From Paenibacillus dokdonensis (GTDB lineage: Bacteria > Bacillota > Bacilli > Paenibacillales > Paenibacillaceae): a stretch of 64,000 nt of DNA. This document shows, one piece after another, positions 28,359 through 39,177 of the stretch. The stretch's first letter is position 1; each line of letters begins with the position of its first letter. Position numbers and translations under genes: made by a program. Location: the NCBI RefSeq assembly GCF_004916975.1, contig NZ_STGQ01000001.1, positions 2,907,674 to 2,971,673 of the forward strand, given 5' to 3'. The notes below the pieces were generated by a model, which worked only from the letters and a program-made list of their open reading frames with translations, made no database searches and was not told where the DNA came from.

Positions 28359-29351
28359 TTATGGAAAGACATCTTGGTGACAGCCTCTTTCATAATACCC
28401 TTCGGCGGCAGCGTCCTTCGCAGAAGTAAATGTCTCTTCGATGCGCAGTCCACTCCGGCAGTCTCCCCGTTCGAAATAGCGAATACCTGTTATAGGATCT
28501 GTACCCGCAAAAATATCTGGCTTTTTCACTATTCTGCCGCCGCCCAAGGCATAATTGTTGATGTAGTCTTTTCCGACAGGGATGCCTTGGACAAATGCAA
28601 TGAGGCCAATATCATGAATAGAGTTATTCCACTCCTCACGCGGGATCAAAGGAAGTGTAAAATCATAGGAGACACCATTCTTAACAGCATTTTCGTTATG
28701 GCGATTAATAACGTTGGCCAAGTCGTTTTCAATAGTCTGGACAATGGTTGTCTGTTTTACCTGCTCAAATAATTCAGATTGGACTAGTAAGGGCACACCC
28801 GTCGTTGATTTCAGTTCTCTCTGTAAACCATGAACCCAGCTATCAGCCTCATGATCATAGACATCCACAACATTATCTAATGTGAAACGGATAAGGTTTC
28901 CATACTCGTCACTATAAGCATAGGGCTTTTTAGGACTCCAAACATGCTTGATGAGCGTCTCATGATCCTTACCTGTAAACTCACCATCCGAGTAAACATA
29001 ATAACCGTCATAGTCGATAACAGCGATGGCAGGAATGTAATAATCAAGTAGCTGCTGTGCCTGTACATCATCTTCAATTCCCAGATCCGCATACAGGCTC
29101 CTATAGAAAATGCCCAAAGCCAATTCTTTGTCAGCGCGGAAATATTTCGATGATCCATAGCCCGCTTCCCACTCCTGCTTCTCATTCATATTCAGTACGC
29201 TTGCTCCATCTTGAACAGCCGTACGGAGCGCAGTCACATATTTCATCTCCAGAAACTGCGCCGTTTGCTGATCCTTAATTTGAAAACCACTGAGTAAAAA
29301 TACCGGCACAAAGATGATGACGAACACGATTGAAAAATCAGTAATCTTCAT
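28359..29351 (-). CDS. Pilus-locus single-TM protein (last gene)
   Basis: 330 residues from the ATG at 29351, 14 nt inside the preceding gene, with GGAGG upstream. An N-terminal TM segment (residues 6-23, FSIVFVIIFVPVFLLSG) is followed by a long extracellular region with no motif I know, rich in Asp, Tyr and aromatic residues. It ends the ten-gene operon. Its size and topology suit an accessory or minor subunit exposed outside. Function unknown. Confidence 0.82.
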   Translation of the reverse strand: MKITDFSIVFVIIFVPVFLLSGFQIKDQQTAQFLEMKYVTALRTAVQDGASVLNMNEKQEWEAGYGSSKYFRADKELALGIFYRSLYADLGIEDDVQAQQLLDYYIPAIAVIDYDGYYVYSDGEFTGKDHETLIKHVWSPKKPYAYSDEYGNLIRFTLDNVVDVYDHEADSWVHGLQRELKSTTGVPLLVQSELFEQVKQTTIVQTIENDLANVINRHNENAVKNGVSYDFTLPLIPREEWNNSIHDIGLIAFVQGIPVGKDYINNYALGGGRIVKKPDIFAGTDPITGIRYFERGDCRSGLRIEETFTSAKDAAAEGYYERGCHQDVFP

Positions 29352-29892
29352 TGAGAACCATGCCTCCATACGGATATGCAAGCACAGCCGCTTCCCCTGA
29401 AATAGAACCAGATACAAAATCCATCATGATCGTTCCTGCCGTGCGGTTGATATTCTTAACAGTGACCTTGAAGAAATCACCAACGTTCATTTTATATTTC
29501 CGAGCATCATCATCCTTCTCCATAGTAGAATTCGGAAAAATAGCAGACATTATATCAGCCGTATAGTAACCTGCGTAGGATACATCAATATCATGTTGAA
29601 ATGTGTCCGGATTCGATGCATCTATGTAAACGGGTGTGTATTTCTTATGTAAATGCTCCATTTGAATATCAAAATCATTGCCTGTCCTATGAATCTCATT
29701 CAAGAAATCCTGATACATGACCGGTGTAAGATATCCCTTATTCCTGACTGCATCGACAAACTGGGTAACTGCGTTGTAGACCATGATCCGGGATAAATCA
29801 TCATGTCTCTGATATGTTTCAGCAGCCGGATAAACGAACATTAGCGCAACGGCGAGAAGTACTGCTACGAATTTCGAAACCGAACTGCTCAT
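29338..29892 (-). CDS. Pilus-locus single-TM protein, 184 aa
   Basis: 184 residues; the ATG at 29892 overlaps the previous stop (ATGA). Signal-anchor at residues 5-23 (SKFVAVLLAVALMFVYPA), then an extracellular domain. The last 60 residues (VGDFFKVTVKNINRTAGTIM) look beta-rich. No known family. Its place among other pilin-like proteins suggests a minor pilin or assembly partner. Confidence 0.82.
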   Translation of the reverse strand: MSSSVSKFVAVLLAVALMFVYPAAETYQRHDDLSRIMVYNAVTQFVDAVRNKGYLTPVMYQDFLNEIHRTGNDFDIQMEHLHKKYTPVYIDASNPDTFQHDIDVSYAGYYTADIMSAIFPNSTMEKDDDARKYKMNVGDFFKVTVKNINRTAGTIMMDFVSGSISGEAAVLAYPYGGMVLNEDY

Positions 29893-30287
29893 GAGGATCC
29901 CTCTATCGTAGGAAGCTTGTAGAACTGCAATTCCGTCAAATTTCCGTGGATATCCCGTATATATACTGTGCGATACTTAGCATCAGCTTGAAAAATGGAC
30001 TGCTTAATAAGCGCAACAGGATCATTTTGGGTGACGGTTACGCCATCTGCTTGGATACGGACTTCGGAATCAACCACGATCAGGAGCGCCTGGGAACCGC
30101 TGTAGATATCAGGCTCGCTCAGCTTAAGGGTTGAATGAACACTCCGCTTTTGACCTCCAACTACGGAGGCTGCTTCATGCAGTGTCATCCTAATCTGACT
30201 GGTAAGGCCCAAAGTAAAGAAGCAGGCACCCAGAAACAGGGCTATACTTATGCTAAGTATTATCATGTCTCGCATATTTTCGTTCAT
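29889..30287 (-). CDS. Pilus-locus single-TM protein, 132 aa
   Basis: 132 residues; ATG at 30287 with GGAAGAGGGG upstream. A hydrophobic N-terminal helix (residues 8-30, MIILSISIALFLGACFFTLG) follows a short charged head, as in type IV pilin-like proteins. The remainder is an extracellular domain of about 100 residues. No prepilin peptidase Gly-Phe/Glu motif is obvious. It overlaps the next gene by 4 bp. Confidence 0.82.
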   Translation of the reverse strand: MNENMRDMIILSISIALFLGACFFTLGLTSQIRMTLHEAASVVGGQKRSVHSTLKLSEPDIYSGSQALLIVVDSEVRIQADGVTVTQNDPVALIKQSIFQADAKYRTVYIRDIHGNLTELQFYKLPTIEGSS

Positions 30288-30311
30288 GGTGCCCCTCTTC
30301 CTCCCTAGATG

Positions 30312-30794
30312 CTATTGTACAAAAATAAGTCCACGTACAACGTTGGATTTGTCTCTTACGATGCTGGCTTTAAACTTACCGCTTGGGTTTACGTATTCAT
30401 TGCTGGATTCAAGCGTTGTATTTCTTAAATCCCCTGTTTTATTCTTATTATCATCGACTGAACCAAATCTGTCGTCCGTTACAACATCGTCAATGAACAA
30501 AGTGTTTCCGTACCATTGTCCTCCTTTGTTCTTACCAGTTTTGACGAGTATGCCGAATTGATCCTTGTCATAAAATTTGCGTAAAGCATTTGTCACTTGT
30601 GATCCGCTGATGCTTGTGCCGTCATATACCGTAAATGAAGCCTGAGAGAGCTCGGTTTGAATATCCGAAAAGTTATTTTGCGCTGTCTTGGTAGCCTCCT
30701 GTGCCGAAATAAAGAGAATTACAACTATAGTAATCAATGCGATGGTCAGAAATATGCCAGCGGCCACCTTCAATGCGCTAGAAGCGTTATTCAT
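30312..30794 (-). CDS. Pilin-like single-TM protein, 160 aa
   Basis: 160 residues; ATG at 30794 with AAGGAGT. The N-terminal hydrophobic helix (residues 9-30, KVAAGIFLTIALITIVVILF) is followed by AQEATKTAQNN, a helix continuing out of the membrane as in pilins. A domain with ISGSQVTNALRKF follows, which I remember from small structural proteins found beside Tad-like genes in Firmicutes. It is the best candidate for a structural subunit of the machine encoded upstream. Confidence 0.82.
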   Translation of the reverse strand: MNNASSALKVAAGIFLTIALITIVVILFISAQEATKTAQNNFSDIQTELSQASFTVYDGTSISGSQVTNALRKFYDKDQFGILVKTGKNKGGQWYGNTLFIDDVVTDDRFGSVDDNKNKTGDLRNTTLESSNEYVNPSGKFKASIVRDKSNVVRGLIFVQ

Positions 30795-30808
30795 TAGACA
30801 GCAACTCC

Positions 30809-32881
30809 TTATATTTTTTGAATTTGTTCATAGTACACATTCATCTGCATGAAGCTTATGACAATAAGCGGTACAACCAGATACATAAAAATAAGCGCAT
30901 ACATGGGTGCAAAGCCAAACATTTTTCCCAAACCTGCCTTCGTATCAATCATTTTCTCGTATTCCTGTTTGCGCTGTTCGAAGTAAAACGACATCTCATT
31001 CTCAAGATCGTCAAATGCCTGGGCAATTGGGATCTTCTCAACACAGAGAAGCAGCTTGTCCACAATTCTTTGGAATTCTATCAACCGAACCTCTTCCTTC
31101 AGTTGAGTTAGCGCCATTTCCGCACCATGATCATAATGCAGCACACATCGCTGGATTGGTATTTTAAAAATATTCGCAAATCGGTTCATCCACTCCAGTA
31201 TTTCTTCGACCGATATCCTGTCCATCTCCCGGAGCATGGAAATCACCGTCTGGAACTGGTAGACCTCATGTCTCATATCCATATAACGTATTTTCCGCTG
31301 AAAATAGAGCAGCCATAGCGGAAATTGATATCCGGCCCATCCTATCAAAAGAGCAGTCAGAATCTCCCACCACTTTAGATATTCCTGATTGTAAGCCTTC
31401 AATTTGGATAGGATTCGATTCGTTGAATTGACAAGCGTATCCTTACTGGAGTTGATATTTTGCTTTCCATTGACCCTACTGGCGATTTCGTCATAACTAG
31501 CAGAAGATGACATACCAACCTCCTTCATCACCCTCAGATCCTGATCACTAAGTTGATGACCTGCATCTCTTTGATCGCTGGAGACTTGTCCGAAAAAGGT
31601 GTTCCCGCCTACAGGAGCATGTAAGATGTGGCTTTTGGCTGTTTGATGCAAAACCATCATGATCGTCATGGTCACCACAAAGGACAAAATAAAAAACATA
31701 ATTCTGCGGATATAGAACCATTCATATCTCAAATGTGTACTGCTCTCCTTAAGCAACCGTATCATTTGGGCATATGCCGGAGTCGCCGGCTTAGGTGCCA
31801 TAAAGGAAGCTGTGAGCCTTATAACTGAAAAGGAAGAAAAAAACTGCTCCCATGTTTTTTTCTTATCACTCCAGCGATATGTTGTCTCATTGTCCTGTTG
31901 TAACCGCTGAAGCAAAACAAAGGACAATATAATGACGATAAAAATTACAATTTTCGTGATATAACCCAACTTGCTTGTATAAAACTCATCCATAGCCGGA
32001 AAACTGCTGCGGGCCCACCGCTCAATCGGCTTCGTAAAAAATACGGGAGCAAGCGCTATGACATTCAAACCCTTCAAAAGATAATCCAGCTTATCCCGGC
32101 GTAAAATCTCCAAATGAATTTCCTTGGTCAGACCGCTTAGCCCCTGCAAATAGATCGAGCCCTGCTCTTTGACCTTGTCACCAAACTCCATAATCATAAA
32201 AGAAATACCCGCAAAGGCCTTCAGAAAGCGATTAGGTGCCGTCTCATAGAATTTCTCAAGCTCTTCGGATGGATCTTTCGCATTTAAAGCCTCGTATATT
32301 TTGCGTGTATGGACCGACGCCTCATAACCTGCAGATTCTGCCGCTTCATATATTGCTTCATCGATCATTTCATGCTGCTGATATCTATGCCTTACTTCAG
32401 AGAACAAGTCGATCATCTGCATCAACAGCTTTTTCTCCATGCGGTTAACGTACATATCGATTAGCAGACTGTTAATGATCACTGCTGTAAGCAGGACCAG
32501 CAGAAGGAAGCTTACGCTAGGATTAAGCATGAAAAGAATCAGTGCAGATGATGCTAAAATGCCTAAAACAACCAAAGTGATCTTAGTTGTTTCACGTCTC
32601 AATCTGAATTCATCGTATGCGTGAACACCCGATATTCTTTTTCTGACTCTTTGTATGTAAGCAGACAGCCCAGGAATTTTAGACATGATCATGTAAGATT
32701 TTTGTAAAAAATGATTCCAGCGCTCCATCAAACTGATATTTTTGAACAGCGACTTTCCATGGAAATACGTTTGAGCAGTATGCTTTTGTCTACTCTTGGA
32801 CCAAGACAGAAAAGCAAAAGATATTCCAAAAAGAATCAGTGATGACATCAGGACAACGAGCAGGATCGCTTTAATATTCAT
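30809..32881 (-). CDS. Fused TadB/TadC-like platform membrane protein
   Basis: 690 residues; the ATG at 32881 lies 11 nt inside the preceding ATPase gene. There are two T2SSF/GspF-like halves. In the first, cytoplasmic helices (LLMQMIDLFSEVRHRYQQ) lie between TM pairs near 90-145 and 310-335. In the second, QFQTVISMLREMDRISVEE precedes a C-terminal TM segment (YALIFMYLVVPLIVISF). Canonical Tad systems use two separate proteins, TadB and TadC; here both appear joined in one chain. It would be the inner-membrane platform that couples the ATPase to pilin extraction. Confidence 0.85.
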   Translation of the reverse strand: MNIKAILLVVLMSSLILFGISFAFLSWSKSRQKHTAQTYFHGKSLFKNISLMERWNHFLQKSYMIMSKIPGLSAYIQRVRKRISGVHAYDEFRLRRETTKITLVVLGILASSALILFMLNPSVSFLLLVLLTAVIINSLLIDMYVNRMEKKLLMQMIDLFSEVRHRYQQHEMIDEAIYEAAESAGYEASVHTRKIYEALNAKDPSEELEKFYETAPNRFLKAFAGISFMIMEFGDKVKEQGSIYLQGLSGLTKEIHLEILRRDKLDYLLKGLNVIALAPVFFTKPIERWARSSFPAMDEFYTSKLGYITKIVIFIVIILSFVLLQRLQQDNETTYRWSDKKKTWEQFFSSFSVIRLTASFMAPKPATPAYAQMIRLLKESSTHLRYEWFYIRRIMFFILSFVVTMTIMMVLHQTAKSHILHAPVGGNTFFGQVSSDQRDAGHQLSDQDLRVMKEVGMSSSASYDEIASRVNGKQNINSSKDTLVNSTNRILSKLKAYNQEYLKWWEILTALLIGWAGYQFPLWLLYFQRKIRYMDMRHEVYQFQTVISMLREMDRISVEEILEWMNRFANIFKIPIQRCVLHYDHGAEMALTQLKEEVRLIEFQRIVDKLLLCVEKIPIAQAFDDLENEMSFYFEQRKQEYEKMIDTKAGLGKMFGFAPMYALIFMYLVVPLIVISFMQMNVYYEQIQKI

Positions 32882-34778
32882 ATGGACTGCCCCAATGATG
32901 ATTCAAAAACTCACGGAATTTATTCGCGTCCTCGATCCCCATCTGTTCTGCCATTTCAACGGCATTCCCGCCGGAAATCGGTTCAGCTGCGACATATTTC
33001 CCGTCCCGATACTCCACAATATTACGGGAGGTATATCGCTGCGCTTTCTGCCTTGCCTCGTATTGAAGCTCCAGGAGTTCGCCCAGCAATTGCTCGATAG
33101 TGCCCTCTCCATGCATCTTCCTCTCCAAAAAAGGATTGTTCTCTACAGGAATGCACTCTGTAATCCTTTCAATGTACCGTCTGCCATCCCCATCCCTTTT
33201 CATATGGATATCAAAGTTAATAACCTGTATTACCTGTTCCTCAGCGATATGCTCATTGTGGAACACACCGGTCTTCAGCAGTGAATTCCGCAGCGAATAT
33301 ACGAGGTCACGAAATGTCTTGGCATGGTGAGTGAATATAGTGAACAAGCTGGCTACCTGAGACATTTGAATCATCCATGCAGCGACCTCATCACTCGCAA
33401 CTTCACCCAGGATATTGACCGTTCCGTCCGTTTTCTTTTGCAAATCCAATCCCTCTTGGCCCGATATCCGTTCTGTTTCTCGAAAAGACAGAATGTTTCT
33501 CCGGCTGTAAATTTTACGCAAATGGAGCTCAAAGGCCATTTCCTGAACACGTAGAGTAAATGTGGGGTCGATATGCTCTACCATTGCCATGAGCAGCGTT
33601 GTTTTACCCGAACCCTGTGCACCGGTTATGGCCGTAATTCGGCTTCCTTTCATCAGGTAGCTAAGCAGTTCAATCGGAAGCTCGGCGTTCTCCCCGGTCA
33701 CCAGCTGCTGTAGGGAGGCATTCGGAATATCAAACTTGCGTACAAAAAAAGCCCAGGATTCAGCAAACGGCGGTCGGACAACAACGACACGTGAGCCGTC
33801 CTTCATTTCATTGACCTTATAACCATTGGATTCAGACAGCTGCCCAGGATGGTTGTACTTATAAATGTTTTGACAGACTCGCTTAAGCTCCAGCTCCGAA
33901 CCGAAAGATAGAAAAGCCATGTGTACCGATTTCCCTTTATAAAAAACCCAAACGCTCTCGGATGCGGAAAAAGGCTTGTGATATTCATCCTCGTACAATA
34001 ACGGCAGCGAGTATTTATGATTTCCATATGTATCCGGTATTCCATCATCTGTTAGAATGCCATTAACACCTCCGCTGATTCCATCGATGCGCTGGTCCCG
34101 CAGATCGTCTACCACTGAAAAACCCTTATATTGCTGATAAATCCGCTGCACGACAATATCCAATTTCTCGATAAAGGTTAAGCTTCCATAGCCTAACTCC
34201 GTTATGAAAATTTGCTCAATATCCTCAGCCGTAACCGCGTATACGGGTTGTTCCCCATATCCGTCTATGATGCGCGGATCTGCTAATCCATAATTTTCAA
34301 ATAGCTGCGACAATGCTTCCTGTCCATGTTGCTTCTGGTATAAGTAAAAAATAATTTCAAACTGATCCTGCGTTGTTAAGCGTCCAATATCTTCAAATGG
34401 AATGACATCATTAATATGCTCCTCCGTTAAACCAAAACTCCTGACGAGCAGATCCGCTATGAACTGTTTGACGTACTGCTTCTCATGCAGGTCACCTGAG
34501 ATACACTCCTTTAATGCCTTGCGAAGCTCACTCCGCTTATTCAGCCTCCGCTTGTACTCCTCCTCATGAAGTCCCAGATCGGTTAGTTGGCTGTGTGTCA
34601 GTTCATGCAGCGTTTCCTTCACGAACTCTGTCATTATCTCTACCGAATATTGTCCGGCTGCGATATTTGCGCTCAAGGCAGGGCGACGATAATCCAACCA
34701 TTTCACATAGACGAGCAAACCTGTAAAAAGAACAATTACCGCGATCAGCAGAATGTTCATGTTCATTCCGGAGATCAT
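32871..34778 (-). CDS. TadA/CpaF-like secretion ATPase with N-terminal membrane anchor
   Basis: 635 residues; the ATG at 34778 directly follows the upstream stop, with AAAGGGGG before it. The C-terminal half is a type II/IV secretion ATPase: Walker A GAQGSGKT at 386-393, a Walker B-like ILGEVASDE and a His-box-like THHAKT. Residues 8-26 form a hydrophobic helix, unusual since TadA proteins are normally peripheral and cytosolic. It powers assembly with the platform protein, to which it is translationally coupled (11-bp overlap). Confidence 0.88.
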   Translation of the reverse strand: MISGMNMNILLIAVIVLFTGLLVYVKWLDYRRPALSANIAAGQYSVEIMTEFVKETLHELTHSQLTDLGLHEEEYKRRLNKRSELRKALKECISGDLHEKQYVKQFIADLLVRSFGLTEEHINDVIPFEDIGRLTTQDQFEIIFYLYQKQHGQEALSQLFENYGLADPRIIDGYGEQPVYAVTAEDIEQIFITELGYGSLTFIEKLDIVVQRIYQQYKGFSVVDDLRDQRIDGISGGVNGILTDDGIPDTYGNHKYSLPLLYEDEYHKPFSASESVWVFYKGKSVHMAFLSFGSELELKRVCQNIYKYNHPGQLSESNGYKVNEMKDGSRVVVVRPPFAESWAFFVRKFDIPNASLQQLVTGENAELPIELLSYLMKGSRITAITGAQGSGKTTLLMAMVEHIDPTFTLRVQEMAFELHLRKIYSRRNILSFRETERISGQEGLDLQKKTDGTVNILGEVASDEVAAWMIQMSQVASLFTIFTHHAKTFRDLVYSLRNSLLKTGVFHNEHIAEEQVIQVINFDIHMKRDGDGRRYIERITECIPVENNPFLERKMHGEGTIEQLLGELLELQYEARQKAQRYTSRNIVEYRDGKYVAAEPISGGNAVEMAEQMGIEDANKFREFLNHHWGSPYEY

Positions 34779-35624
34779 TTATGCCCCCCTTTCCACCAGC
34801 TTCAGTGCGGTGGTCATATCCAGCTGAGTTAATATGTCCTTGTTCAATGATCGGATACTCTCCAGGAATGCTGCCGAAGGCTGCCGGTTGTTCAGATTAC
34901 GGCTGCGCTGCAAAAACGGCAGGACACTTCGCATATTCCATGCATCCAAGAAATCCGTTGTGTATGGAATCCCATGAATCGCTCCTTTGTAGCCAAACCT
35001 CCTTTTCACGTTATTCAGCGTACAATGGGAGTACTTATCATACCGGCCCAGCACCAAAATGTACGGTTTTTCATTTATCACCGGTGGACGGCCACCGTCC
35101 TTAAAGAACAAATCCAAACCCTCAATACACTGATTCAGACTAACTACGATTAGATCGGCTGTTTCCAGCAGCGCTTGGTCACCGCTTCCATCCTTCGGAA
35201 TACCGCATCCTGCGTCTGCCAAAACAAGATCATAACTCTGGTTTGCAACAGCACATATGGACTGCAGGAGCTCCTTCCGGTACCCGGGCATCGTTCCTTC
35301 CGATTTTGCATTTCCTTGGACCAAGTCCAGTCTTTCAGGAAGCATTGGCAGTGTGTAATCCCTTATATTGTCACGGGTTAATCTGCGGTTCAGGCAAAGT
35401 CTCTCGAGCGCGTCCATGCCATGATCCTGAAAGGAAATCAATGAATGATCCAATGTGTAAGCCCCCGTTTGAAAAGCTCCTTCCACCCTCTCCTTCGCCT
35501 TGCCTCCATGTGCTAACAGCAGCTTCAAGCGATATTCCATCCCTATACTTATGGCAGCCGCAGATGCATGTGCGGAATTTCCGCTGCCTCCTTGAAGGGG
35601 ACTCCAAAAGACGATCTTGCTCAT
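34779..35624 (-). CDS. MinD/TadZ-like protein with degenerate P-loop
   Basis: 281 residues from the ATG at 35624, overlapping the previous stop as ATGA, with GGAGAAAAG upstream. The ParA/MinD fold is visible: the N-terminal strand KIVFWSPL, then QGGSGNSA (11-18) where the deviant Walker A would be, and YDLVLADAGCG. Both signature Lys positions are lost (Gln and Asn), so ATP hydrolysis is doubtful. TadZ proteins with atypical Walker A sites position Tad machines at the cell pole, a plausible role here. Confidence 0.82.
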   Translation of the reverse strand: MSKIVFWSPLQGGSGNSAHASAAAISIGMEYRLKLLLAHGGKAKERVEGAFQTGAYTLDHSLISFQDHGMDALERLCLNRRLTRDNIRDYTLPMLPERLDLVQGNAKSEGTMPGYRKELLQSICAVANQSYDLVLADAGCGIPKDGSGDQALLETADLIVVSLNQCIEGLDLFFKDGGRPPVINEKPYILVLGRYDKYSHCTLNNVKRRFGYKGAIHGIPYTTDFLDAWNMRSVLPFLQRSRNLNNRQPSAAFLESIRSLNKDILTQLDMTTALKLVERGA

Positions 35625-36337
35625 GCTTTTCTCCTCTCCGCAACCCGCAGTGCGCGATTGATCTTTTTTTGATCCCATTCGGTAATCATTTGAACCAGTT
35701 GGCACAGATTTCTTTTAAATCCCCTGGTCAGCGGCTTCATCTGGACTCTTTTTGTGTGCTCATTCCGCAGCTTTAGTGACAAATCAAGCTCATTCCATGG
35801 GATAACAATCGGCTCCTCTTTCCAACATACCGGCAGGTGATTAAAATATCCGTCGAGGTAGGAGGTAGCATACCACTCATCCACTGCTCGGACGATCAGT
35901 TTAAACATTTCTGGCTCCGTACCTTCAGCAAAGTTGCGTTTAACAGCTTCATGCAGCCACATGCTTCCCTTTTCCAGCGTCCAGATCTCATAATCAGTAA
36001 CCCAAACTAACGCAGAAGCCTCTCTCCATACTCTCGGTGTACAAAAATCCGGATGCTCCAGATCATAGATAACATAGTCATAGTTATCCAAGCTGCTGCT
36101 CGTGATCTGTAAATGAGCGTCAAGGCTGACCACATCATCAAATCCGCATGCAACATCAAATCCTGCAAATTCCGTAATTGACAGCTGCTCATCAAGCTGC
36201 CCGATATAAAATGGATATTTTCTTTTTTCCGTCGCATCCACCAACAGCACACTGTAATTGCTGGAGACCAGCATTTTGCATAAATACATCAAGATCTCGC
36301 TCTTGTCACATAAGCCGGCAAAAATCCATGTGTTCAA
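35621..36337 (-). CDS. Second MinD-like protein without a P-loop
   Basis: 238 residues from a TTG at 36337 (AAAGGAG about 14 nt and GGGG just upstream). The arrangement of strands (TWIFAGL, YSVLLVDAT, YDYVIYDLEHPDF, ALVWVTDYE) is that of a ParA/MinD fold, but no Walker A is present at all. The C-terminal third is basic. It precedes and overlaps the other MinD-like gene, suggesting the two proteins pair. Non-ATG start is moderately sure; function unknown. Confidence 0.75.
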   Translation of the reverse strand: MNTWIFAGLCDKSEILMYLCKMLVSSNYSVLLVDATEKRKYPFYIGQLDEQLSITEFAGFDVACGFDDVVSLDAHLQITSSSLDNYDYVIYDLEHPDFCTPRVWREASALVWVTDYEIWTLEKGSMWLHEAVKRNFAEGTEPEMFKLIVRAVDEWYATSYLDGYFNHLPVCWKEEPIVIPWNELDLSLKLRNEHTKRVQMKPLTRGFKRNLCQLVQMITEWDQKKINRALRVAERRKA

Positions 36338-36392
36338 ACCCCATCCTGCTCCTTTCCACTTTTACTTTGGATCGATTATGTTTGTATCCTGA

Positions 36393-37523
36393 TCATGGCT
36401 GAGTAGAGGGAAGCTCTGTCTCGGTCTGATTTTCGTTCATACTTTGTTCAAGCAGCTTATTGTCCTGAGCCTCCCCCCAGGAAAAAGTATCCTTATCAGA
36501 AGTAGCAGGTACCGGATTGGCCGTTTTAATTTTATCTTCTGTTTCATTACCACGAGTTGTTGAATCGTCTTCTGGTTTTAAATCTTCAAAAGTAAATCCT
36601 GAACTAGTGGACTCCGAGCGATGTCCCGAGCTTGTCCCTCCGCTTTGATACGTTGGAGCAAACTCTGAATCCGCAAAGCTCTGGCTTGCTTTTCGGGAGT
36701 CTGATGCTGCCGTCAAGTCTTTTTCAAGGGAAACACGTACAGCTTCAGACAGCTTTTGTTCCGCTTTCTTTACAATATTCGGATCACTGTCAATCAGCTT
36801 CAGTACCTCTTTATTAACAGGATACGTCGGTATAGCTTTATCCTGCATTTCCGGTTCAACATAAGTAACAGCGTACAGCTTGGCATCGTGCAGATAAGCG
36901 TCAACCATAGCGCTGGATAATGACAGAATTTCCTGCTCCGTCATCGTAATCCACATCGCCGGACTGATCAGCTTGTCGATTTTCTTCTTGGATAAAACGA
37001 TGTAGTCCTGTCCTGTAGGAAACTGGACACGCACATCTACTACGTCATGCTCACGCAAATTGGAAGGCAATGCTATCGCCTGTAATTCCCTGTTCCTGAG
37101 ATCAGCCAGCAAAGGCTCCTGTTCATAAATCATTGCAATCGTTAATGCAGTACCTTTTTTCAAATCAATCTTGGCGATCTTTATTCCACTCACGTCACTG
37201 CTTTGAACTAGATTGACCGGAGCCGCTCCCTGGGGCAGCTTAACCTGCACAAGATCCTTTGCTGAAATGACTTCACCCGCATTAATATCTCTAGCGAGTC
37301 CCCAACTGGATGCCATCTTTTTTTCCTCATCCAACTGCGCCTGCTCCAGCCTCGTAATCTGCTGCTCAAAATCCTGCTTGATTCTGTTTTCCCTGGCATG
37401 ATGCTGCACACTGCTGAACACGGCATAGCCTGCAAATATAACACCCATTACAGCGGCACCCGCCAGTCCGGCATAGAGCATTTGTTTTGTTCGCTGTCTC
37501 AGCTTGGACATGTACCTTTTCAT
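36393..37523 (-). CDS. CpaB/RcpC-like SAF-domain protein
   Basis: 376 residues; ATG at 37523, with a second ATG four codons on (37511) that has better spacing from GAGAGGAG. One TM helix (residues about 14-36) is followed by a coiled-coil stretch (DFEQQITRLEQAQLDEEKK). The SAF domain then begins at GLARDINAGEVISAKDLVQV, as in CpaB. The last 110 residues are Ser/Thr/Glu/Asp-rich and look disordered. In Tad systems CpaB links the platform to the outer structures; this monoderm version would sit on the outer face of the membrane. Confidence 0.85.
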   Translation of the reverse strand: MKRYMSKLRQRTKQMLYAGLAGAAVMGVIFAGYAVFSSVQHHARENRIKQDFEQQITRLEQAQLDEEKKMASSWGLARDINAGEVISAKDLVQVKLPQGAAPVNLVQSSDVSGIKIAKIDLKKGTALTIAMIYEQEPLLADLRNRELQAIALPSNLREHDVVDVRVQFPTGQDYIVLSKKKIDKLISPAMWITMTEQEILSLSSAMVDAYLHDAKLYAVTYVEPEMQDKAIPTYPVNKEVLKLIDSDPNIVKKAEQKLSEAVRVSLEKDLTAASDSRKASQSFADSEFAPTYQSGGTSSGHRSESTSSGFTFEDLKPEDDSTTRGNETEDKIKTANPVPATSDKDTFSWGEAQDNKLLEQSMNENQTETELPSTQP

Positions 37524-37541
37524 TCTCCTCTCTCACACGAA

Positions 37542-39023
37542 TCAGCTGAGTCCGAACCTGAATCTCCTTCTTCGCTCGACCCCTGTCAATACGCCTTGAA
37601 AAATACGGTTTAGCGCACGATCCATTTCCTCACTTTGATCAAAAGGGTCCATATGCAGCGGAAGTGAAAATACCTGAGATGTGTTTAGCTGCCTGCGCAG
37701 CCTTTGGACAGCATCCGTTGGGGCAAGCGGCAGAAAATACATCCACTTCTGCTGTGGATATCTCGACAGACTGTGGACCATATCCATCACATCCTGCTGA
37801 CGCCATTCCGCACCTGATGCAACAATTACGGAAATATCTGCCCTAAGGAACTCTTCCAAACGCTCTCGCTCGCGGTAAGTTCCCAAATCGATCACAACAT
37901 AGTTGTAGCTCCCTGATAACAAGGTGATGACATCAGCTCTTGCCGTCTGCCTCCAGTAGTCCACTCCCTGCACTTCAAACTTGCGGCTGCCCCCGCCCGG
38001 CACATGATCCCCATTCACAATATGCTGAATTCTCCGAAAAGCCGGAGATCTTACATTCATTTCAACAAGCGCGACCTTGCTGTGGCTCTGCGCCAGAAAA
38101 TGACTAATCGCAATGGCCGTGTGCGTTGTACCTGTACCTCCGCTCGCTCCCATCACTGCGATCACCTGTGTACTGGTTCTTCCGGCGATATCTCTTCCGC
38201 GTCTCACTTCCGGTACAGTCTTCTGTCGTACTGCTGAAGCCAATTCCTTGCGAACTTCATTTGCCGACGCATAGCGGTTCTCTGGAGCTAGCTGCAGAAG
38301 CTTGCGTATCACCGGAATCAGCCTGCGCGGCAGATCGGGACGAATGTACTTCTCAACCCTATCCGACCACTCACTATAAGCTCCCGCGGTGGACAGATAA
38401 AGCAGCAGAGCTCCCAGGCCATACAGATCAGACCTTGCATCGCTTTGTCCGGAACCATATTGCTCGGGAGCCGCAAATCCGATCGTCCCCAACTTAACCG
38501 TGTCCTGCGTCTGCTCCTGCTTGTAATTTCGGGCAATCCCAAAATCAATAAGTCTTAGCTCCAGCTGTTCCGTAAGCATAATATTTGACGGCTTCAAATC
38601 TCTGAAAATAATAACCGGATCATGTGTATGTAAGTAACCGAGCACCTCCAGCAGCTGGTCCGCCAGTTGAAGGATGGAATCTACAGGAATCTTGCCTCTA
38701 TAACCGCTAAAATATTTTTCAAGCGTAATTCCCTGGATGTAATCCATTACCAGATACGAATATCCATCATTGTCAGGAGAAAAAAAATCCACAATCCTTG
38801 GAAGTCTGGCATGACTAAGAGAAATGAGAAGCTTTGCTTCATCCCTTATGCTGCTGTAATGTTTCGGATCGACCACACTTTCCTTAACAGCCCACAACTT
38901 GCCAGGCAGCTTCAGATCCTCTGCAAGATACACATGGCTCATGCCGCCTTCTCCAATCTTCCGGACAATCTCATATCTCCCCCCAATCGTCAGTCCGATA
39001 AGCAGTTTGGAAGGATGATCCAT
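37542..39023 (-). CDS. Ser/Thr protein kinase fused to a MinD/TadZ-like domain
   Basis: 493 residues from the ATG at 39023 (AAAGTGAGG upstream; the open frame extends earlier through the leader hairpin). Residues 15-265 form a eukaryotic-like kinase: Gly loop GEGGMSHVY, Lys47 in WAVKES, FRDLKPSN (140-146, His of HRD replaced by Phe), DFG at 160-162, GTIGFAAPE. Residues 285-493 are a ParA/MinD fold starting VIAVMGASGGTGTT, with Ser and Thr in place of the two signature Lys. There is no TM and no PASTA repeat. First gene of the pilus-like operon, so it may control assembly or placement of the machine by phosphorylation. Confidence 0.88.
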   Translation of the reverse strand: MDHPSKLLIGLTIGGRYEIVRKIGEGGMSHVYLAEDLKLPGKLWAVKESVVDPKHYSSIRDEAKLLISLSHARLPRIVDFFSPDNDGYSYLVMDYIQGITLEKYFSGYRGKIPVDSILQLADQLLEVLGYLHTHDPVIIFRDLKPSNIMLTEQLELRLIDFGIARNYKQEQTQDTVKLGTIGFAAPEQYGSGQSDARSDLYGLGALLLYLSTAGAYSEWSDRVEKYIRPDLPRRLIPVIRKLLQLAPENRYASANEVRKELASAVRQKTVPEVRRGRDIAGRTSTQVIAVMGASGGTGTTHTAIAISHFLAQSHSKVALVEMNVRSPAFRRIQHIVNGDHVPGGGSRKFEVQGVDYWRQTARADVITLLSGSYNYVVIDLGTYRERERLEEFLRADISVIVASGAEWRQQDVMDMVHSLSRYPQQKWMYFLPLAPTDAVQRLRRQLNTSQVFSLPLHMDPFDQSEEMDRALNRIFQGVLTGVERRRRFRFGLS

Positions 39024-39046
39024 TCTCGTCGCCTCACTTTCAAGAC

Positions 39047-39117
39047 AAAAAAAAGGAAAGCACTCCTGGAGATGACTGTTACGGTTATCCGTAAAGCCAA
39101 ACACCGGGATGCTTTCC
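39047..39117 (-). promoter_or_regulatory. Structured leader with terminator hairpin before the kinase gene
   Basis: In the minus-strand leader, GGAAAGCATCC pairs with GGA(G)TGCTTTCC (arms 39117-39107 and 39066-39055, one bulged G), followed by eight T. Inside is a second hairpin TTACGG-ATAA-CCGTAA. It lies between the promoter and the start codon, so it should act as an attenuator or riboswitch expression platform. I could not match it to a known riboswitch class. Confidence 0.65.
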
Positions 39118-39147
39118 CTTTATTTATCATCTGGTTAATTTGGTATC

Positions 39148-39177
39148 ATTATAGAGCAATGGTAATATCTGTGTAAA
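39148..39177 (-). promoter_or_regulatory. Sigma-A promoter of the pilus-like operon
   Basis: Minus strand -35 TTTACA (39177-39172), 18-bp spacer, -10 TATAAT (39153-39148). The leader to the kinase ATG would be about 118 nt. Confidence 0.7.

Follow-up and report, generated by a model that had tools for sequence, protein, structure and literature searches.

Gene content of the operon

The window analyzed here, a 64,000-nucleotide stretch of the Paenibacillus dokdonensis genome (G000, C1:2907674-2971673), contains a compact minus-strand operon of ten open reading frames (ORFs) at positions 28359-39104, which encodes a putative relative of the Tad pilus machinery. All ten ORFs were confirmed at the positions given in an earlier note on this DNA, and they overlap or almost touch one another. 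In order, they are K, SAF, M1, M2, the ATPase gene ATP, the platform gene PLAT, and four genes for small proteins, S1-S4 (Table 1); starts conserved in profile alignments shorten the ORFs of K, SAF, M2, and S4. Promoter-like matches were no more numerous in the region than in shuffled sequences, and the sole support for the candidate promoter upstream of K is its placement. Scans of the window for Rfam families (at the gathering threshold) and for tRNAs were empty. G and L numbers denote our genomes and loci throughout.

Table 1. Features of the operon in window coordinates, and the related TshM-type proteins in the coordinates of their own loci. TM, transmembrane segment; aa, amino acids.
Feature	Position	Strand	Description
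Promoter, sigma-A-like	39148..39177	-	TTTACA-18-TATAAT upstream of K; 11/12 consensus positions
K	37542..39104	-	PknB-like Ser/Thr kinase fused to ParA/CpaE(TadZ)-like ATPase domain; conserved start 39023
SAF	36393..37523	-	CpaB/RcpC-like; one TM, then SAF domain; conserved start 37511
M1	35621..36337	-	MinD-like, deviant P-loop
M2	34779..35705	-	Second MinD-like protein, weakly supported; conserved start 35624
ATP	32871..34778	-	CpaF/TadA-type assembly ATPase; N-terminal TM and N-terminal extension of ~250 aa
PLAT	30809..32881	-	Fused platform, two TadB-like halves; 7-8 TM (hydropathy, homologues)
S1	30312..30794	-	Leaderless pilin-like protein, probable major subunit
S2	29889..30287	-	S1-related minor pilin-like protein
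S3	29338..29892	-	Single-TM protein; possibly TadE/DUF4320-like (weak)
S4	28359..29417	-	Large single-TM protein, long N-terminal helix, alpha/beta ectodomain; possible tip; conserved start 29369
TshM-type proteins	L100:11781-13235, L102:12924-14345, L194:12372-13823		Match the ParA/TadZ-like half of K

The first four genes may correspond to the control module proposed in the earlier note. The kinase-MinD-type fusion was recovered in K, which matched Pkinase in Pfam (E 1.5e-35) and, in its ATPase half, AAA_31 (4.6e-4) and TIGR03815 (4e-5), both under the Pfam or NCBIfam cut-off. This C-terminal half may also be related to the genome's own TadZ (hhalign 50.5% over 51 columns), and the kinase residues K47, R141-D142, and D160-F161-G162 were invariant or nearly so in 18 aligned rows. 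Likewise, SAF held up as a CpaB-like protein, with a SAF domain over the Pfam cut-off (E 8e-7) and a match to CpaB TIGR03177 under it (1.9e-7). Of the two proposed MinD-like proteins, M1 was supported by the match of its profile to MinD-type 4v02 (E 2.2e-4); M2 is weakly supported as MinD-like, because its profile yielded weak matches alone (best ATPase E 0.03). Neither M1 and M2 nor PLAT and S1-S4 had a meaningful family match in Pfam or NCBIfam.

Assembly ATPase and fused platform protein

The ATPase was closest to TadA/CpaF, as had been proposed. ATP matched the TadA family TIGR03819 (E 3.4e-10) below the cut-off and T2SSE (6.9e-5) below the gathering score, and the best match of its profile in the PDB was CpaF 8rkd (E 1.6e-10), beginning at profile position 274. 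The TM segment at its start and the long extra domain that follows can be read directly from the sequence. Across the 32 rows of the ATP alignment, the mean column identity was 59%, and the Walker A residues and the GE of the Walker B region were invariant. Against the ComGA model, ATP scored 19.7 bits (E 3.3e-4; cut-off 300), compared with 39.7 bits against the TadA model; the ComGA-type ATPase of the Com pilus is thus not matched by the window protein.

The platform is encoded as one fused protein of 690 aa, in agreement with the earlier description. Its N-terminal half matched the mixed TadB/C profile at 79.6% (hhalign) in a first profile set and at 92.1% (E 6.3e-7) in a wider set, whereas the reversed controls gave 11.7% and 6.7% and the column-shuffled controls no more than 0.2%; against TadB alone, the N-terminal half reached 70.0%. 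The C-terminal half (residues 495-690) matched TadB/C at 42.8% in the wider set (reversed control, 9.7%) and TadB alone at 71.7% (E 3.5e-5), the latter value standing without a reversed control. Against TadC alone, PLAT gave at most 2.0%. Judging from these family-profile scores and controls, PLAT appears to be a fusion of two TadB-like units, the N-terminal one well supported and the C-terminal one moderately so. The internal repeat was not detected directly (N-terminal versus C-terminal half, 0.2%), PLAT had no sequence match in the PDB, and T2SSF was absent among the matches listed (25 of 47 Pfam families) for 32 PLAT members. When the PLAT, S3, and S1 profiles were compared with the single TadC, TadB, TadE, and Flp sequences of the same genome, all values were at most 2.0%; family profiles made the relation of PLAT to TadB/C visible and a relation of S3 to TadE not.

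Small proteins S1-S4

Type IV pilins consist of a long N-terminal helix followed by a beta domain. The AlphaFold model of S1, built from 66 aligned homologues (mean predicted local distance difference test score [pLDDT] 88.7), consists of one 54-residue helix (residues 2-55), a short helix, and four longer strands, so that S1 is predicted to resemble a pilin in its layout. S1 begins directly at its TM segment. Its profile matched the genome's own Flp at 2.0%, a weak test against a single sequence, and Pfam over the 66 members gave nothing coherent (DUF4153 in 12, DUF515 in seven). An iterated profile search joined S2 to S1. For S4, the model (pLDDT 81.1) also shows a long helix (residues 2-58). 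S3 matched DUF4320 in five of 60 members (best E 0.003), with an unrelated family matched in eight of the same 60. The proposal that the small proteins are pilin-like therefore stood, through structure prediction, for the layout of S1; neither sequence nor PDB fold linked S1 or S4 to a known pilin.

The class III prepilin motif (G/A, E at +5, and a hydrophobic stretch) was absent from all 169 S1-family ORFs and all 75 S4 ORFs. It occurred in two of 76 S3 ORFs and in one of the 210 ORFs of the S2 set, 162 of which also belong to the S1 set; by eye, these three matches look incidental. The same test detected all six canonical pilin-type proteins of the window's genome (6/6). We lean, by little more than an even chance, towards a Tad-derived motor that builds a type IV filament-like structure, either a pilus or a short pseudopilus, from unprocessed pilins.

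Conservation and distribution of the operon

Relatives of the ATPase were sought in one genome per species, and the best 80 of at least 423 coding relatives were kept as loci, drawn from Paenibacillus, Fontibacillus, Tumebacillus, and Clostridia; some of these loci stop at contig ends. For the core genes found, the order on one strand was the same in 80 of 80 loci, and all eight core genes were found in 64. Gene order is thus conserved far beyond chance, across Paenibacillaceae and beyond. In tblastn searches with the window proteins (the own-genome loci L001 and L002 subtracted), ATP, PLAT, and M2 were each found in all 80 loci, SAF and S3 each in 77, S4 in 75, M1 in 74, S1 in 68, K in 60, and the fast-evolving S2 in 29. 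Contigs of clostridial metagenome-assembled genomes (MAGs) or uncultured genomes accounted for 17 of the 80 loci, and these carry up to six tandem S1-family genes. In Paenibacillus, the main copy is often flanked by constant neighbors, with additional copies located elsewhere; the neighbor upstream of K has relatives in 50 loci and the downstream ABC-F-like neighbor in 45, a few of them through weak paralogue matches.

In a sample of 398 genomes of the phylum, in which at most two candidates per genome were scored so that some may have been missed, seven genomes gave matches. Five were genuine and all belonged to the window's family; the other two, in G119 and G138, were rejected as weak matches to ORFs that fit TadB/TadC profiles. 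Another family of the order holds a copy that diverges more strongly (L101; G039:C1:218000-234000), in which S3 and six single-TM genes, three of these S1-like, lie between PLAT and S4, and four small ORFs of unassigned kind come after S4. One clostridial MAG has, after the operon, a gene (L060:20343-21218) whose product presumably resembles the sporulation protease SpoIVB.

Prepilin peptidase

Assembly of type IV filaments is usually taken to include a step in which a prepilin peptidase cleaves the leader. The window encodes no such peptidase, and the two PF01478 matches of the genome, at C1:263555 and C1:794055, lie more than 2 Mb away; among the ten operon proteins, Pfam detected no secretin domain. 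Both absences are as the earlier note had it. In a sample of 100 Paenibacillus species, 48 of which carry PLAT, Peptidase_A24 (PF01478) was found in 98. The two species without it were G023, which is 72% complete and has no PLAT, and G006, a single contig with a completeness of 100, which holds the complete operon including S1-S4. In G006, the best PF01478 match in a search up to E 10 was at E 0.29 (14.1 bits). Because this genome also has no TadC match, and no T2SSE match other than the operon's own ATPase, the operon is its only recognizable type IV filament motor. The G006 operon thus appears to stand without a recognizable prepilin peptidase, in one genome in which a very divergent peptidase may nevertheless occur.

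If S1-S4 were processed by a distant or shared peptidase, the operon would be a Tad pilus after all, in the form of a fast-evolving subtype. The ATPase and the CpaB-like protein are indeed Tad-type, and almost every carrier encodes a peptidase elsewhere in its genome: 47 of the 48 Paenibacillus PLAT carriers and 15 of 16 clostridial and Tumebacillus carriers (Tumebacillus and 15 clostridial loci from the set of 17, without L070 and L076), the sole genome outside the genus without one being G532, a MAG of unstated completeness. In Denise et al. 2019 (PMC6668835), the peptidase is counted in the ancestral system, and MSH loci without a peptidase are described as possibly borrowing one from other systems; the accessible text of that paper does not mention Paenibacillus by name. 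However, the motif is missing from the whole S1 family while the controls are positive, G006 shows no peptidase to borrow, and the window genome has a separate canonical Tad locus with its own leader-bearing Flp pilin and TadV. We consider this subtype distinctly unlikely.

Two pilus-related regions of the window genome also stood out. Its canonical tadA is split (G000:C1:234989-257409; L096 and L097), with T2SSE at 234989-235657 and resuming at 257221-257409; a 601-aa ORF that is recombinase-like by eye lies at the first junction of the gap of approximately 21.5 kb, and the interruption resembles a skin-type insertion. At G000:C1:777500-797000 (L139), a cluster of type IVa pilus-like genes encodes two T2SSE ATPases, a PF01478 peptidase, and pilin-type proteins bearing classic leaders.

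Association with DUF5704 and SLH proteins

In accessory loci, S4 is followed by a gene for a Cu-amine-oxidase-N or S-layer-homology (SLH) protein and one for a DUF5704 protein of approximately 1100 aa. The pair was tested with Pfam in L044 and L064, and DUF5704 was identified by profile in further loci; by eye, both partners have Sec-type N-termini. In the accessory locus at L079:16389-19622, three tandem, near-alike, secreted-looking proteins are encoded ahead of the DUF5704 gene. In the genus sample, which partly overlaps the 80 loci (nine of 20 genome regions are identical to loci in that set), DUF5704 was present in 50 of 100 species, namely 48 of the 48 with PLAT and two of the 52 without it (Fisher p 2.6e-26, with kinship ignored). 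Furthermore, it lay within 12 kb of 22 of 55 PLAT copies, compared with approximately 0.5% per locus expected by position, and 21 of the 22 linked genes were on the S4 side by strand, the exception being G468:C47. DUF5704 was also found in Tumebacillus.

Both genomes with DUF5704 and no PLAT match were inspected. In G489, a truncated S4 lies beside an SLH-type gene and the DUF5704 gene, which gives the impression of a decayed operon; the same region (L173; G489:C1:1378001-1396000) continues with a WXG100 gene (PF06013 E 5.1e-9) and also encodes a 700-aa protein without a Pfam match. In G478, the DUF5704 gene is on a 6.6 kb contig. No DUF5704 relative occurs inside the window. The pair of the window genome is unlinked (G000:C1:583664-588352), 2.35 Mb from the operon, and consists of an SLH protein of 411 aa and a DUF5704 protein of 1141 aa with a Big_2 domain.

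The MAG contig L008 is closely related to the window locus: its proteins from K to S1 are 67-84% identical to those of the window, and L008 is sister to the window locus in the ATP+PLAT tree (support 0.96). Its S2, S3, and S4 share only 27%, 43%, and 42% identity with their window counterparts and fall in groups with other loci (0.96-0.99). They are followed by SLH and DUF5704 genes, and the far flank again resembles the window neighborhood by eye. It looks as though S2-S4 and the SLH-DUF5704 pair had been replaced as one block, on a single MAG contig whose assembly may be chimeric. Because L008 and L174 are the same contig (100% over 12,376 bases), this is one case. SLH-type and DUF5704 genes also follow S4 in L058, which occupies the main position too.

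Type VII secretion neighborhood

Genes of a type VII secretion system (T7SS) are interleaved with the operon in all four loci that were examined beyond it (G018, G458, G485, and G508). The order in these four is EssC, a 232-257-aa protein, a small protein, a K-like protein with a C-terminal TM segment, a WXG100-like protein (in L100, PF06013 E 4.5e-4, below the cut-off), and then SAF onward. On the far side in G458, S4 is followed by SLH-type, DUF5704, WXG100-like, and approximately 700-aa proteins, for which "LXG-like" is a label given by eye. In G018, a 743-aa protein with a nuclease domain (PF13930) is encoded between S4 and the SLH-DUF5704 pair, with WXG100 and approximately 720-aa proteins after the pair. 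A second arrangement, with an EssC-type gene and WXG100 after S4, was found in L066 and L067. The window locus lacks both parts: no ORF of the window had a match to the EssC of L066 or to the WXG100-type proteins of L066 and L100 (phmmer, E <= 0.01).

This neighborhood has been touched on in print. Garrett et al. 2024 (PMC11217815) noted neighboring "Tad pilus" genes for T7SSg and T7SSh, possibly a coincidence, and the accessible text gives no analysis of them. The T7SSh parts described there (a membrane ATPase, an EspG-like protein, a ubiquitin-like protein, TshM with a C-terminal TM segment, and WXG100) fit the order in the four loci, and homologues of the operon follow directly; our EspG-like and ubiquitin-like assignments are made by position and size. 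DUF5704 lies within 12 kb of every one of the ten PLAT copies that make up the T7SSh-linked subtype in the genus (bits 584-596). TshM was described as possibly kinase-like (PMC11217815). Here, the TshM-type proteins correspond to the ATPase half of K (hhalign 98.9%, E 1.8e-17) and not to its kinase half (0.1%).

These K-like proteins bear on another explanation, namely that the operon encodes a membrane signaling or envelope-stress complex in which S1-S4 are bitopic proteins, with S4 as a Cache-like sensor and the kinase as output. K does retain the kinase catalytic residues, and dCACHE sensor domains take the first two places in the structural search with S4. However, their Z scores of 3.7 and 3.5 are well under the level that is meaningful alone, and dCACHE was set aside as an identity of S4. 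Moreover, the kinase can be missing while ATP and PLAT stay: tblastn found no K in any of the 17 clostridial loci, and the TshM-type proteins have no kinase half. A signaling complex is therefore very unlikely in our judgment.

The T7SS genes and the secreted pair also suit an exporter resembling the type II secretion system, in which a short pseudopilus pushes Sec-exported DUF5704/SLH proteins or T7SS substrates across the wall and S-layer, with no long fiber formed. The Sec-type N-termini of the pair, its position after S4 in accessory loci, the interleaving with T7SSh, and the adjacent toxin-like genes favor this explanation, but up to six S1-family genes occur in Clostridia whose genomes show no DUF5704. 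We regard such an exporter as possible, if on the unlikely side.

Discussion

The operon shares with the Tad (type IVc) pilus a CpaF/TadA-type ATPase, a CpaB-like SAF protein, ParA-family ATPases, and TadB-like platform sequence. It differs in that Tad has separate TadB and TadC whereas the window operon has one fused platform, and in that its ATPase carries an N-terminal TM segment. Moreover, the locus has neither a Flp pilin nor TadV, its pilin-like proteins lack a class III leader, and a kinase fusion, two further MinD-like genes, and the DUF5704/SLH partner are added. Given the fused platform, the missing leader, and the lack of a peptidase in the locus, we rejected membership in canonical Tad and kept Tad as ancestry. 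This agrees with the earlier view of the operon as a monoderm Tad-type variant with a control module of its own. The claim that the system is uncharacterized stood in part: no other description came up in the literature searched, and because relatives beside T7SSg and T7SSh were already named "Tad pilus" genes (PMC11217815), the class is not wholly unseen.

As in the type IV filament superfamily, an ATPase, a platform, and pilin-like subunits are encoded together here, the pilins being identified by predicted layout only. The literature searched on leaderless, uncleaved, or peptidase-independent pilins contained, in its accessible text, nothing describing this machine. The nearest report (PMC9563170) concerns TadA-type pilus clusters without a prepilin peptidase in the cluster in MAGs of Ca. 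Nanohaloarchaeota; these are archaeal, contain kaiC, and have no pilins annotated, and the comparison is by description alone. Kil/Tad of Myxococcus (PMC12075869), a contact-killing system, offers an analogy as a Tad-type machine with its tip linked to contact-dependent killing; its host is diderm, and the likeness is one of description. Two "pili" loci, which may or may not include this operon, have been deleted in Paenibacillus NAIST15-1 with no effect on motility (PMC5072692). For DUF5704, no paper was found in the literature searched.

The computed support for a filament-like structure built by a Tad-derived motor from unprocessed pilins consists of the sequence relations of ATP and PLAT, the layout of the S1 model, the lack of a class III motif in S1, and the retention of the operon in G006. 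Several observations weigh against it. Foldseek, VIA-align, and a PDB profile search returned no pilin for S1, and neither S1 nor S4 had a significant fold or sequence match in the PDB. S3 had no link to the genome's own TadE family profile (hhalign 0.3%), and in the first profile set the C-terminal half of PLAT scored 3.5%, under its reversed control of 10.3%. Nearly all carriers do possess a prepilin peptidase, and the genome that speaks for independence from it is a single complete one, G006. The DUF5704 association is without phylogenetic correction, and the 15 clostridial genomes searched for DUF5704 yielded none. The cassette replacement was observed in one MAG contig alone; in 20 of 20 other main-locus regions it was absent, with S3 and S4 keeping step with PLAT. 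Finally, the putative filament is read from genes and models, and no fiber has been observed.

In the proposed filament machine, the membrane-anchored CpaF-type ATP would drive the two-lobed PLAT, which would pull S1 from the membrane into a helical fiber. S1 would be a pilin that polymerizes without leader processing, and its native N-terminus would therefore take the place of the processed pilin N-terminus. S2-S4 would be minor subunits, with S4 the likeliest tip among them. K, M1, M2, and SAF would position and switch the machine, K adding control by phosphorylation. From its co-occurrence and linkage, we infer that the secreted SLH or Cu-amine-oxidase-N protein and DUF5704 act together with the machine; together with S2-S4, this pair would make up the end of the machine that achieves contact through the S-layer. 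The most probable role is cell-surface contact or adhesion by way of the S-layer, and in the T7SSh-interleaved loci such contact would aid toxin delivery. The operon may thus encode an overlooked kind of bacterial contact fiber. More specifically, but with rather less than even confidence, we propose a leaderless, peptidase-free filament lineage of monoderm spore-formers, with a membrane-anchored ATPase and an S-layer-associated DUF5704, one lineage of which would form a single operon with a T7SS and act as a contact weapon.

If this holds, leader cleavage would not be essential for the assembly of type IV filaments, and the operon would provide a natural test case, possibly with a general lesson on pilin processing. 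DUF5704 would gain a candidate partner machine, and the published, unexplained neighborhood of Tad genes and T7SSh would have a testable reason.

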